NCBI RefSeq assembly: GCF_026616205.1
Contig: NZ_JANHGR010000002.1
Span: forward strand, 62,001 to 126,000
Length of the DNA: 64,000 nt
Reading direction: 5' to 3'
DNA from: Halolamina litorea
GTDB taxonomy: Archaea > Halobacteriota > Halobacteria > Halobacteriales > Haloferacaceae
Shown: one piece after another, positions 13,845 through 46,549 of the stretch
Numbering within the stretch: the stretch's first letter is position 1
Layout of the letters: each line of letters begins with the position of its first letter
Position numbers and translations under genes: made by a program
Notes under the pieces: generated by a model
The model's database searches: none
Told to the model about the DNA's origin: nothing
What the model saw: only the letters and a program-made list of their open reading frames with translations

Positions 13845-14672
13845 CTACTCTGAAACGATCTCCCCGCCGCGATCCTCCCACTCGGTCAGGCTCCCCTCGT
13901 ACAGCCCGACGTCCTCGTAGCCCAGTTCCCGCAGCGCGAGGTACGTGTGGCTCACCCGCCGGGCGGTGTTGCAGTAGAGCACGGCTCGCTTCCCGGGGAC
14001 GATCCCGCGCGCTTCGAGCAACGCCCGCAGTTCGGCCTCGGGTTTCAGCCCGCGTGACTCCTCGTCGACCAGTTCGCGCCAGTCCACCTGCACCGCACCG
14101 GGGAGGTGCCCCTCCTCGAACTCCCAGTCCTCGCGCGTGTCCACCAGCGTCACGTCGCCGGCCTCGACGGCCGGCAATAGCTCGTTGACCGTCTCGAAGT
14201 CGACCAACGGCGTCTCGGCGTCGGGGTCGCTCACGTAGTGGGCCGGCTTCGGGTCGACGTCATCGGACTGCGTCCGATTGGCAGACGAGCGTCGCTCGTC
14301 GATGGCGTCGGTGGTCGTCTCGCCCTCGCGCTGCCACGAACTGAAGTCGCCGTCGAGGACGTGGACTTTCGCGGGGTCGTGGCCCAACAGCAGCGCCGTC
14401 ACGGCGAACCGCGCGGCGAACACACCCTGTGTGTCGTCGTAGGCGACGATCTCGTCGTCGGCGTCGATCCCGGCCGCCGAGAGCAGGTCCTCCCACTCCC
14501 CGCGGGGTGGGAGCTTCCCGGCCTCGCCCTCGTCCGAGCGAAAGCTCTCGAAGGGGACGTTCACCGCGCCCGGCAGGTGGCCGATGCTGTCGTACTCCCA
14601 CCGGTCGCGGACGTCGACGACGCGAACGCCGTCGTGCTGTTCGAGCCACGACGCAGGGACGAACGGATCCAT
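13845..14672 (-). CDS. Two-domain sulfurtransferase (rhodanese) carrying an inserted peptide
   Basis: Thiosulfate/3-mercaptopyruvate sulfurtransferase type, 275 aa, with tandem rhodanese domains. The N-terminal domain (about 5-115) is inactive because the loop reads AYDDTQG without Cys. The C-terminal domain (about 155-275) has the active loop LYCNTARR with nucleophile Cys234. The interdomain linker contains residues 126-140, ERRSSANRTQSDDVD, encoded by a double-hairpin DNA element also found in the ABC transporter at 33 kb. The ATG at 14672 (MDPFVP) is preferred to a TTG four codons upstream. It is convergent with the AI-2E transporter and divergent from a second sulfurtransferase. Confidence 0.92.
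   Translation of the reverse strand: MDPFVPASWLEQHDGVRVVDVRDRWEYDSIGHLPGAVNVPFESFRSDEGEAGKLPPRGEWEDLLSAAGIDADDEIVAYDDTQGVFAARFAVTALLLGHDPAKVHVLDGDFSSWQREGETTTDAIDERRSSANRTQSDDVDPKPAHYVSDPDAETPLVDFETVNELLPAVEAGDVTLVDTREDWEFEEGHLPGAVQVDWRELVDEESRGLKPEAELRALLEARGIVPGKRAVLYCNTARRVSHTYLALRELGYEDVGLYEGSLTEWEDRGGEIVSE
14253..14309. repeat. Double-hairpin in-frame insertion element, copy A
   Basis: Plus-strand order: GTCGACGTC (14253-14261), hairpin 1 ATCGGAC-TGC-GTCCGAT (14262-14278), linker TGGCA, hairpin 2 GACGAGC-GTC-GCTCGTC (14284-14300), then a weak flank GATGGCGTC. It lies inside the sulfurtransferase gene and, read on the minus strand, adds 15 codons in the linker between the two rhodanese domains. 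It aligns base for base with copy B at 33678, except for the length of hairpin 2 and a compensated base pair in hairpin 1. Confidence 0.8.
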
Positions 14673-14798
14673 GCCCCGACCCAAGTCCCGCGCGGACTTA
14701 GCCCTCGGGGATGCTCACACGCGAACCCACGGAAACCGCCGGCGTCGCCGCCGAACGCGGGCGTCCGAGAGCGCGGCGAGCGCCGCCGGTGGCTGGTC

Positions 14799-33065: not shown

Positions 33066-35018
33066 CTAATCGTCCCCGGTCGCCACGCCAGCCGACCCGC
33101 CCCCGCCGGCCTGCATCCCCCAGAGCTTCGCGTAGTCGCCGTCGCGGGCGAGCAGTTCCTCGTGGCTCCCGGTTTCGGCGACCTGCCCGTTCTCCATCAC
33201 CACGATTCGGTCGGCGTCCTTGATCGTTGAGAGTCGGTGCGCGATGACGAACGCCGTCCGGTCCTCGGTCAGTCGGTCGAGGCTCTGCTGGATCTGCTCT
33301 TCGGTCTCGGTGTCCACGTCGGAGGTCGCCTCGTCCAGAATGACGATCTCGGGGTCGTTCAGCAGCGCCCGAGCGATCGCCAGCCGCTGGCGTTGGCCCC
33401 CGGAGAGTTTCACCCCGCGCTCGCCGATCTGGGTGTCGTACCCCTCCGGCAGGTCGGTGATGAACTCGTGGGCCTCGGCGGCTTTCGCGGCGTCGACGAC
33501 CGTCTCGCTCACCCCCTCGTCGTCGCCCGAGAGCACCGAGAGGTCGCCGTAGGCGATGTTCTCCTCGGCGGTCCCCGAGAACATGTAGGGGTTCTGCTCG
33601 ACGATGCCGACGTGCTCGCGCAGGCTCGCGAGGTCCCACTCCCGCACGTCCACGTCGTCGACGCGCACGGCCCCAGAGTCGACGTCATCAGACTGCGTCT
33701 GATTGGCCGACGAGAGCCGACGGCTCTCGTCAACGTCGTAGAACCGCGGCAGCAGCTTCAGCAGCGTCGACTTCCCGGCGCCGGTGGTCCCGGCGAGCCC
33801 GACCGTCTGCCCCGCCTCGACGCCGAGGTCGACGCCGTTCAGGATCGTCTCGTTCTCGTCGTAGGCGAACGTCACGTCGTCGAACTCGACGTGGCCATCG
33901 ACGCCCTCTGGGACGTAGGCGTCCTCCGGCGTCGTCACCTCGGGTTCGTGGCCGAGGATGCCGAACACGCGCTCGGAGGAGGACTTCGCCAGTTGGTACT
34001 TGTTCGCCGTCTTCCCGACGCGGCGCATCGGCGCGTAGAGGCGGCGCAGCAGCATGAAGAACGTCGCCACGACGCCGGCTTCCAGCGCGCTGGAGGAGCC
34101 GGTGACGATGTCGCTGCCGACGACCCAGAGCATCGCGACGAACACCAGCCCCGTGATGACCCGCAGCGACGAGAAAAAGGCCCGCCTGATCTTGATCGCG
34201 CCGACCTTCTCGTCGTGATAGTGCTCGCTCTGGTCCGAGACTCGGTCGAGTTCGAAGTCGTAGCGGTTGAACGTCTTGATGACCCGCGCCCCGCCGAGGT
34301 TGTTCTCCAGTCGGGAGTTCAGTCGCGACACCGTCTCGCGGATCCCGCGGTACTTCGGCTCGATCCACGTCAGGAACTTCCCGGAGGCCAGCCCGATGAT
34401 CGGTACGGGCGCGAGCGCGATCACCGCGACCTTCGGCGAGTACCAGAACATGATCGCCGCGATGCCGCCGACGGTGGCGACGACGCGGATCGCCTGCCGG
34501 ATCTCGGTGTTCAGGAACTGCTCCAGCCGGTTCACGTCCTGGTTCAGCACGGACATCATCGCGCCGGTCTGGTGGGTGGCGAAGAAGCCCAGCGAGAGCC
34601 GCTGGATGTGGTCGTACGTGTCGTTCCGGAGGTCCCGCTGTACCTTCTGGGCGGTAGACATGAACAGGTACCGCGAGGCGAACCGGGCCAGCGACCGGAC
34701 GACGTAGGCGGCGCCGGCGATGATCACCAACTGTTCGAGGAACTGGAGGCGGGCGGCTTCGCCGGCGATCTGTCCCTCCGGGATCAGTCCGGCGCTGACG
34801 AGCAGCCCACCCTCGCCGGTGCCCTGCATGATCACGCGGTCGATGGCGACGCCGACCAACAGCGGCGGGATCAGCCGCGACAACCGGACCACGAACGCGG
34901 CGACGGTGCCCACGCTCAGGCGCCGCCAGTACGGCAGACAGTAGCGCAGGAGCCCCTTCATCGAGTGGCCGTCGACGGACTGACGGATCTCGGAGAAGCT
35001 CCCGTGTTCGTCACCCAT
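33066..35018 (-). CDS. ABC exporter half-transporter (permease-ATPase fusion)
   Basis: 650-residue ABCB-type half transporter, presumably a homodimer exporting lipids or drugs. Six membrane helices lie within about 20-350. The nucleotide-binding domain (about 375-630) has Walker A GTTGAGKST, Q-loop VEQNPYMF, signature LSGGQRQR, Walker B IVILDEATSD and H-loop AHRLST. Between Walker A and the Q-loop, residues 431-447 (ESRRLSSANQTQSDDVD) are an extra 17-residue peptide encoded by the double-hairpin element. Without it the sequence reads FYDVDSGAVRVDD, the normal ABC spacing. Confidence 0.93.
   Translation of the reverse strand: MGDEHGSFSEIRQSVDGHSMKGLLRYCLPYWRRLSVGTVAAFVVRLSRLIPPLLVGVAIDRVIMQGTGEGGLLVSAGLIPEGQIAGEAARLQFLEQLVIIAGAAYVVRSLARFASRYLFMSTAQKVQRDLRNDTYDHIQRLSLGFFATHQTGAMMSVLNQDVNRLEQFLNTEIRQAIRVVATVGGIAAIMFWYSPKVAVIALAPVPIIGLASGKFLTWIEPKYRGIRETVSRLNSRLENNLGGARVIKTFNRYDFELDRVSDQSEHYHDEKVGAIKIRRAFFSSLRVITGLVFVAMLWVVGSDIVTGSSSALEAGVVATFFMLLRRLYAPMRRVGKTANKYQLAKSSSERVFGILGHEPEVTTPEDAYVPEGVDGHVEFDDVTFAYDENETILNGVDLGVEAGQTVGLAGTTGAGKSTLLKLLPRFYDVDESRRLSSANQTQSDDVDSGAVRVDDVDVREWDLASLREHVGIVEQNPYMFSGTAEENIAYGDLSVLSGDDEGVSETVVDAAKAAEAHEFITDLPEGYDTQIGERGVKLSGGQRQRLAIARALLNDPEIVILDEATSDVDTETEEQIQQSLDRLTEDRTAFVIAHRLSTIKDADRIVVMENGQVAETGSHEELLARDGDYAKLWGMQAGGGGSAGVATGDD
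33678..33737. repeat. Double-hairpin in-frame insertion element, copy B
   Basis: Plus-strand order: flank GTCGACGTC (33678-33686), hairpin 1 ATCAGAC-TGC-GTCTGAT (33687-33703), linker TGGCC, hairpin 2 with arms GACGAGAGCC (33709-33718) and GGCTCTCGTC (33722-33731), then the flank GTCAACGTC (33729-33737), which repeats the left flank with one mismatch. The flanking 9-base direct repeats look like a target-site duplication. It inserts 17 codons into the ATPase domain of the ABC exporter. Confidence 0.82.
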
Positions 35019-46475: not shown

Positions 46476-46549
46476 TGGGCCAACGCGGATTTGAACCGCG
46501 GACCTCCCGGTTATCAGCCGAGCGCTCAACCTAACTGAGCTATTGGCCC
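46476..46549 (-). tRNA. tRNA-Ile (anticodon GAT)
   Basis: A 74-nucleotide cloverleaf reads, on the minus strand, GGGCCAA for the acceptor arm and TTGGCCCA at the 3' end. The D arm is TAGCTCAGTTAGG..., the anticodon GAT lies at 46515-46513 in CTGATAA, and the T arm is CCGCGGTTCAAATCCGCG. There is no intron and no encoded CCA. It sits between the helicase and FxsA genes, and a TTAA-containing promoter-like box lies about 37 bases upstream at 46584-46588. Confidence 0.97.

Follow-up and report, generated by a model that had tools for sequence, protein, structure and literature searches.

A short double-hairpin element inserted in frame into haloarchaeal genes, probably a non-autonomous mobile element

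The window, i.e. the whole stretch of 64,000 nucleotides analysed here, contains two copies of a short element, which are located 19.4 kb apart in two genes of the minus strand. Copy A lies in the gene of a two-domain rhodanese (thiosulfate sulfurtransferase; 13845..14684) and copy B in that of an ABC exporter (33066..35018), both assigned by Pfam. On the plus strand, copy A (14253-14306) reads GTCGACGTC / ATCGGAC TGC GTCCGAT / TGGCA / GACGAGC GTC GCTCGTC / GATGGC, and copy B (33678-33737) reads GTCGACGTC / ATCAGAC TGC GTCTGAT / TGGCC / GACGAGAGCC GAC GGCTCTCGTC / AACGTC. All parts are described in the following for the minus strand, on which both genes are encoded. In copy A, a 36-nt core (14262..14297) lies between two 9-mers, the right target copy GACGTCGAC (gene strand; 14253..14261) and the left target copy GCCATCGAC (14298..14306). 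Hairpin 1 (14262..14278) has a 7-bp stem, the triloop GCA on the gene strand and a C-G closing pair, and is followed by the spacer TGCCA (TGGCA on the plus strand; 14279..14283), which is among the commonest spacers. Hairpin 2 (14284..14300) has a 7-bp stem and the triloop GAC; its outer GAC is part of the left target copy. In copy B, a 42-nt core (33687..33728) is flanked by the right target copy GACGTCGAC (33678..33686) and the left target copy GACGTTGAC (33729..33737). Its hairpin 1 (33687..33703) has a 7-bp stem with an A-T pair at the position of a G-C pair of copy A, and its hairpin 2 (33709..33731) has a 10-bp stem and a 3-nt loop.

Both copies are in frame with their host genes. Copy A encodes the 15 residues ERRSSANRTQSDDVD, equivalently IDERRSSANRTQSDD, in the inter-domain linker of the sulfurtransferase. 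Copy B encodes the 17 residues ESRRLSSANQTQSDDVD after LLPRFYDVD in the ATPase domain of the ABC exporter, and an alignment with solved structures places these residues in a gap of the solved relatives of the ATPase. With up to three mismatches allowed, the 19-base block CGGACTGCGTCCGATTGGC has two occurrences in the window, compared to an expectation of 0.06, and none of the shuffled sequences had as many. A covariance search of the window scored copy A at 71.0 bits and copy B at 78.5 bits, the next independent place reaching 23.6 bits. As a marker on its own, GTCGACGTC was uninformative (11 occurrences in the window, 9.2 expected). The preliminary description had reported two near-identical copies in unrelated genes 19 kb apart, in a sulfurtransferase linker and an ABC transporter, with G-C versus A-T in stem 1 and stem 2 lengths of 7 and 10 pairs; the sequences, the block statistic and the Pfam assignments bear this out. 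The window also contains an ordinary tRNA gene (46476-46549, minus strand; Rfam match).

Comparison with orthologous genes revealed empty sites for both copies. In a congener (G002), 45 nt, i.e. the core plus 9 nt, are missing at the site of copy A, which reads GGCGTCGAC there. Exactly 51 nt (again core plus 9 nt) are missing at the site of copy B, which reads GATGTGGAC in the same genome (85% identity). At the protein level, exactly the 15 residues of copy A are missing from the sulfurtransferases of all six congeners, which are 75-77% identical in the aligned region, and 23 of 23 further aligned orthologues of the family have no such residues either. The preliminary description had named as counter-evidence to a mobile element the presence of these residues in all orthologues together with the lack of further copies; this comparison was made and gave the opposite result. 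A conserved sulfurtransferase linker is refuted by the same orthologues. That the peptide is a conserved or convergent acidic linker and no mobile sequence has next to no probability: it is hydrophilic like many haloarchaeal linkers, but orthologues occur without it and the same DNA is found in unrelated genes and between genes. As judged by coordinates and sequence, the copy in an ABC exporter orthologue of another genome (G030:C1:1777240-1777293) is at a different place from that of copy B, and Halobaculum gomorrense (L354, near 1700) has a copy at the place of copy B.

Altogether, about 30 sites were found to be occupied in one genome and unoccupied in another, mostly with sharp edges; the pairs compared are different species or plasmids with 75-92% identity, none of them at strain level. 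Single units inserted in genes have lengths of 45, 48, 51, 54, 57 or 63 nt. For 24 clean pairs, the flanking 9-mers on both sides are more similar to the empty target than shuffled pairs are, with 6.2 versus 4.8 matching positions of 9 for the left and 7.0 versus 5.3 of 9 for the right 9-mer (0 of 20,000 shuffles in each case). The excess peaks at positions 4-9 in the right copy and, in the left copy, at positions 1-2 and 8-9, so the duplication comprises at least 6 bp and most simply 9 bp. Targets show a preference for GRCGYCGAC compared to random in-frame 9-mers (p = 1e-11). Because the duplicated 9-mer resembles the preferred target, a duplication at GACGTCGAC targets is indistinguishable from an end carried by the element, and only atypical targets (GGCACCGGG, AGCGTCGAC, GACGAGGTG) separate the two. 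After insertion, the atypical target GGCACCGGG is present as GGCAACGGG and GGCACCGGG, and AGCGTCGAC as AGCGTCGAC and GGCGTCGAC. The clearest case of a 9-bp target duplication is the plasmid gene merA of Halorubrum trapanicum, in which an exact 36-nt core lies between GACGTTGAC and GACGTCGAC (both GACGTYGAC). In six relatives with 87-92% identity the merA site is empty and reads GACGTTGAC or close variants thereof, and the extra residues fall into a gap of mercuric reductase in the alignment with solved structures. Two plasmid mercuric reductase genes, from Halorubrum trapanicum and Halomarina (L362, 1512-3011; L363, 1509-3011), have the insertion in common and are otherwise intact as annotated.

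For analysis of the family, a covariance model was built from eight copies of the host genome (genus Halolamina; 3.02 Mb, 97.95% complete), in which about 20 good copies were found by blastn, pattern and covariance searches. At E-values up to 0.01 and with 150 candidates scored for each genome, 54 matches were obtained in the congener G002 and at least 124 in Halolamina salifodinae (G066); the tail of both numbers, like the 137 of 148 family genomes with matches near E = 0.01, includes chance matches. E-values of the covariance search are optimistic against the GC-rich background, as the window gave 88 matches for an E-value limit of 1, at which about one would be expected, and our arguments use strong matches only. 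In 84,980 species genomes, a 25-base degenerate pattern found 69 stretches, all of them haloarchaeal (69/69) and from more than 20 genera. In a sample of the phylum, searched at E up to 1e-4, 19 genomes belonged to the same order; 11 of these had matches, as against none of the 101 others. Three haloarchaeal plasmids contain copies. There was no sign of viral spread of the element, with no match of the exact pattern in the viral contigs of IMG/VR and no copies in phage records. The many dispersed copies expected by the preliminary description for a mobile element are thus present in coding and intergenic positions. It had also known of no named family, and none was found in Rfam or in the open literature, where no description of the element was found; an earlier one in subscription papers is possible. 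The element has entered hundreds of haloarchaeal genes, the protein gaining a short soluble peptide and the gene surviving.

On the gene strand, the unit consists of the left target (approximately GACGTYGAC), hairpin 2, the spacer TGCCA, hairpin 1 and the right target GACGTCGAC. The core mostly has 36, 42, 45 or 48 nt in genes, and between genes lengths of 40, 46 and 47 nt occur as well. TGCCA (26 of 83 copies) and TGGCA (9 of 83) are the commonest spacers, 7 and 10 bp the commonest stem lengths. Of 166 hairpins, 153 have a loop of 3 nt, and in 160 of the 166 the loop is closed by C-G. GNA (84) and TNC (31) triloops together make up 69% compared to a background of 10%, most GNA triloops being located on the gene-sense strand. 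The d(C-GNA-G) motif forms an exceptionally stable DNA mini-hairpin. These C-G-closed GNA triloops, together with the near absence of G-U pairs described below, indicate folding as DNA rather than RNA. GACGNC follows hairpin 1 in most copies, yet it overlaps the target duplication. Several intergenic Halolamina copies lie within a larger dispersed repeat (L196:4000-4700, L193:13100-13700, L209:8600-9000, L222 near 8400), which contains blocks such as GGTGGACGCCTCGC and GGGGAGGGGTGGGGACTCGG and has no match in Rfam.

Stem pairing was measured on 78 distinct copies of one genome. In these, 97.8% of the stem cells are paired with hardly any G-U, all 500 shuffles were lower, and slid controls paired in 31-52% of the cells. 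Every stem pair shows double-sided changes (292 cells in total). A copy common to two species (L048, L202) shows the exchange of T-A to C-G in place. In two other, old copies common to species (L047, L058), one side of the stem has decayed, so pairing is not strictly preserved at a given site. The preliminary description had regarded covariation as a mark of selection on structure or of a mobile hairpin repeat. The stems are indeed kept perfect, but this does not in itself demonstrate selection for structure, since correction by template switching does likewise. That imperfect palindromes corrected by template switching during replication are the only reason for the complementary stems, with no selection for hairpins, is quite possible, at somewhat less than even odds. 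It fits the changes, which nearly always affect both sides and show hardly any G-U intermediates, and the pairs of hairpin 2 that reach into the target copy, one arm matching the target (GGG/CCC, GTG/CAC), and the mechanism has been put forward for coding palindromes elsewhere (PMC6649704). On the other hand, it leaves the spread to new sites, the GNA triloops and the conserved spacer unexplained. The process is compatible with a mobile element rather than exclusive of it and may account for part of the covariation.

To determine the reading frame, coding flanks were called with a codon model that had been trained on the genomes concerned. For 31 copies, both flanks are coding on one strand; 29 of these copies keep the frame, 24 reading in one direction and 5 in the opposite one (bias p = 5e-4), with a single phase within each set. 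Match lengths belong to the in-frame class in 28 of 29 copies in genes versus 13 of 37 intergenic ones (Fisher p = 1e-7), the latter having lengths in all three classes modulo 3. In a class-wide set, 41 of 41 in-frame copies have the same strand and phase, a number not independent of family history because the pattern search fixes the subtype. Stops are rare in the copies within genes, which form an open reading frame, and the inserted peptide is hydrophilic and rich in Ser, Asp, Gly, Ala, Arg and Glu. Hence the earlier view that the element maintains the frame holds for copies in genes, but the property is not built into the element: since intergenic lengths fall into any class and those in genes are multiples of three, the frame is kept by survival and by a codon-phased target. 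The fixed phase in both orientations follows from a target made of a run of GNC, as the reverse complement of GNC is again GNC. Selection on the peptide is the more likely cause of the 24:5 orientation bias. Copies at the same place were also observed in several genera (L323, L326, L360, L180:17899). They follow NLxxNxVEHG, which looks like the N box of sensor histidine kinases, and suggest a recurrent insertion hot spot at this site.

The frame data also bear on an action of the element in RNA, as a regulatory mRNA structure, an intron or a segment bypassed in translation. Stable hairpins within transcribed genes would suit such a role, and bypassed palindromes are known in a yeast mitochondrion according to a citation in PMC6649704. 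A length in multiples of three, a single phase and rare stops would be needless if the segment were removed, and the near absence of G-U pairs and of any Rfam match likewise makes this reading very improbable.

In some loci, units are combined to arrays. Head-to-tail units with alternating TGCCA-type and GACGTC-type spacers were found at L044/L046, L066 and L212. The Halolamina salifodinae orthologue of L047 contains a further two-hairpin unit of 51 nt within the TGCCA spacer; old units therefore are targets for new ones. A four-hairpin composite with the spacers TGCCA, GGGCAA and TGACA is present in two unrelated genes (L211:9895, L179:14405) and may itself move as a unit.

With presence and absence at orthologous sites, a duplicated target, a single phase in genes, paired stems and DNA-type triloops, the element is most probably a non-autonomous miniature mobile element of haloarchaea, for which we estimate a probability of about 80%. 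The mobile-element interpretation of the preliminary description is thereby upheld by many copies, empty orthologous sites and covarying stems. As to the mechanism, we infer recognition of hairpins on single strands and an enzyme supplied in trans, the loop composition being the one indication of the single-strand step. Such an enzyme would read the two DNA hairpins by their shape and insert the element with a stagger of about 9 nt, repair then filling in the duplication. With a run of GNC codons as target, insertions into genes would land in phase, and those of wrong length or harmful orientation would be purged by selection. Survivors would add a hydrophilic peptide, e.g. D-V-D-ERRSSANRTQSD-D-V-D, which loops and linkers should tolerate. 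Where a new unit lands in the spacer of an older one, or in its end that resembles the target, hairpin arrays would form. The complementary stems could arise because well-folded copies alone move, because template-switch repair perfects palindromes, or by both.

A double-strand DDE transposase mobilizing the element as a MITE, with the hairpins as by-products, is doubtful but has to be considered. DDE enzymes leave duplications such as 9 bp, and the duplication found here fits, but the core is without terminal inverted repeats, its ends being different, and the stem sequence varies freely with pairing kept. Moreover, a search of 2.46 Mb sampled found no autonomous parent, i.e. no larger element sharing these ends and the duplicated target. 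Mobilization of the IS200/IS605 type, in which a Y1 transposase acts in trans on single-stranded, PATE- or REPIN-like copies via subterminal hairpins, appears improbable. Two end hairpins in a compact element free of terminal inverted repeats would agree with it, and PATEs of such design are known in Haloquadratum (PMC3119063). However, IS605-type elements and PATEs make no target duplication (PMC3119063), compared to about 9 bp here, and the host genome has no match to Y1_Tnp (PF01797). Over 148 genomes, the number of Y1 genes and the copy number, which shares the E-value noise mentioned above, are unrelated (Spearman 0.06, p = 0.47), and 15 genomes free of Y1 have at least 10 matches. An inverse relation seen in a first sample of 20 genomes was dropped on this basis. 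Near 20 Y1 loci of other genomes, two weak matches of 32.4 and 27 bits were detected. Tentatively, the mobile element could represent a separate class of mobile DNA restricted to haloarchaea, in which two exceptionally stable triloop hairpins of DNA, read by shape, are the smallest unit able to transpose, with a 9-bp duplication, codon-phased GNC targets, an unrecognised enzyme and peptides added class-wide.

In-frame selfish DNA is known mainly from Rickettsia, and the element adds an independent example that is spread over an archaeal class. Its empty sites are clean, its target is defined and duplicated, and the open frames remain intact. Host genes include plasmid merA as well as ABC transporter and histidine kinase genes, and the insertions are a natural collection of peptide insertions for probing the tolerance of proteins. 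They account for the recurrent odd peptides SGSRTQSGD and SANRTQSDD in haloarchaeal proteins, and with precise boundaries annotators can treat such segments as insertions and not as conserved motifs. The movement of orphan palindromic repeats also becomes testable in a genetically tractable group.

Regarding known systems, the element departs from RPEs, CGTC-tagged REPs and PATEs/SMRs in at least one defining property each. With MITEs it has the target-site duplication in common, but it has no terminal inverted repeats that match those of an autonomous transposon. Like REPINs (PMC3116915), it spreads paired hairpins as one unit, but REPINs need a RAYT (PMC3116915), whereas the host genome is without a Y1 transposase and the two hairpins are unlike in sequence. 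The nearest haloarchaeal repeats, by analogy, are the PATEs and SMRs of Haloquadratum walsbyi (PMC3119063), which are also transposase-free with palindromes at their ends; as in PATEs and IS605 elements, the palindromes are near-terminal and terminal inverted repeats are absent. In contrast to the element, PATEs and SMRs have no target duplication, the ends of PATEs resemble IS605 elements, and SMRs comprise 80-110 bp with terminal inverted repeats (PMC3119063). The element does not have the size (about 110 bp), the terminal inverted repeats or the preference for PATE/IS605 targets of SMR-A, and in-frame insertion into genes is not among the properties described for PATEs and SMRs. In architecture, CGTC-tagged REPs, which include RPE-4, RPE-6 and dRS3 (Di Nocera et al. 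2013, PMC3733652), may be regarded as the nearest relatives in design. CGTC beside one hairpin foot and, at the opposite foot, an unpaired tail (TGGCA/TGCCA here, CCA there) may be common to both. Both frequently form two-hairpin dimers, have some copies in genes and have no dedicated transposase. Their stems of 8-9 bp and loops of 4-5 nt differ from the 7 and 10 bp and the 3-nt GNA loops described here, where the tails face each other across 5 nt and CGTC is within the duplicated target; moreover, the element is archaeal and the survey (PMC3733652) is without an archaeal member. The functional precedent, again as an analogy, is provided by the Rickettsia palindromic elements (RPE; PMC10969869), bacterial repeats of about 150 bp reviewed in PMC10969869 and PMC3733652. 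Differences to RPEs are the core of 36-48 nt and single-unit inserts of 45-63 nt versus about 150 bp, the two small triloop hairpins, the 9-bp duplication of a codon-phased target and the restriction to haloarchaea (69/69 exact-pattern stretches), with no sequence relation found. What both have in common is that short palindromic repeats, for which no enzyme of their own is known, are inserted in frame into many unrelated genes and add a peptide to the encoded protein.
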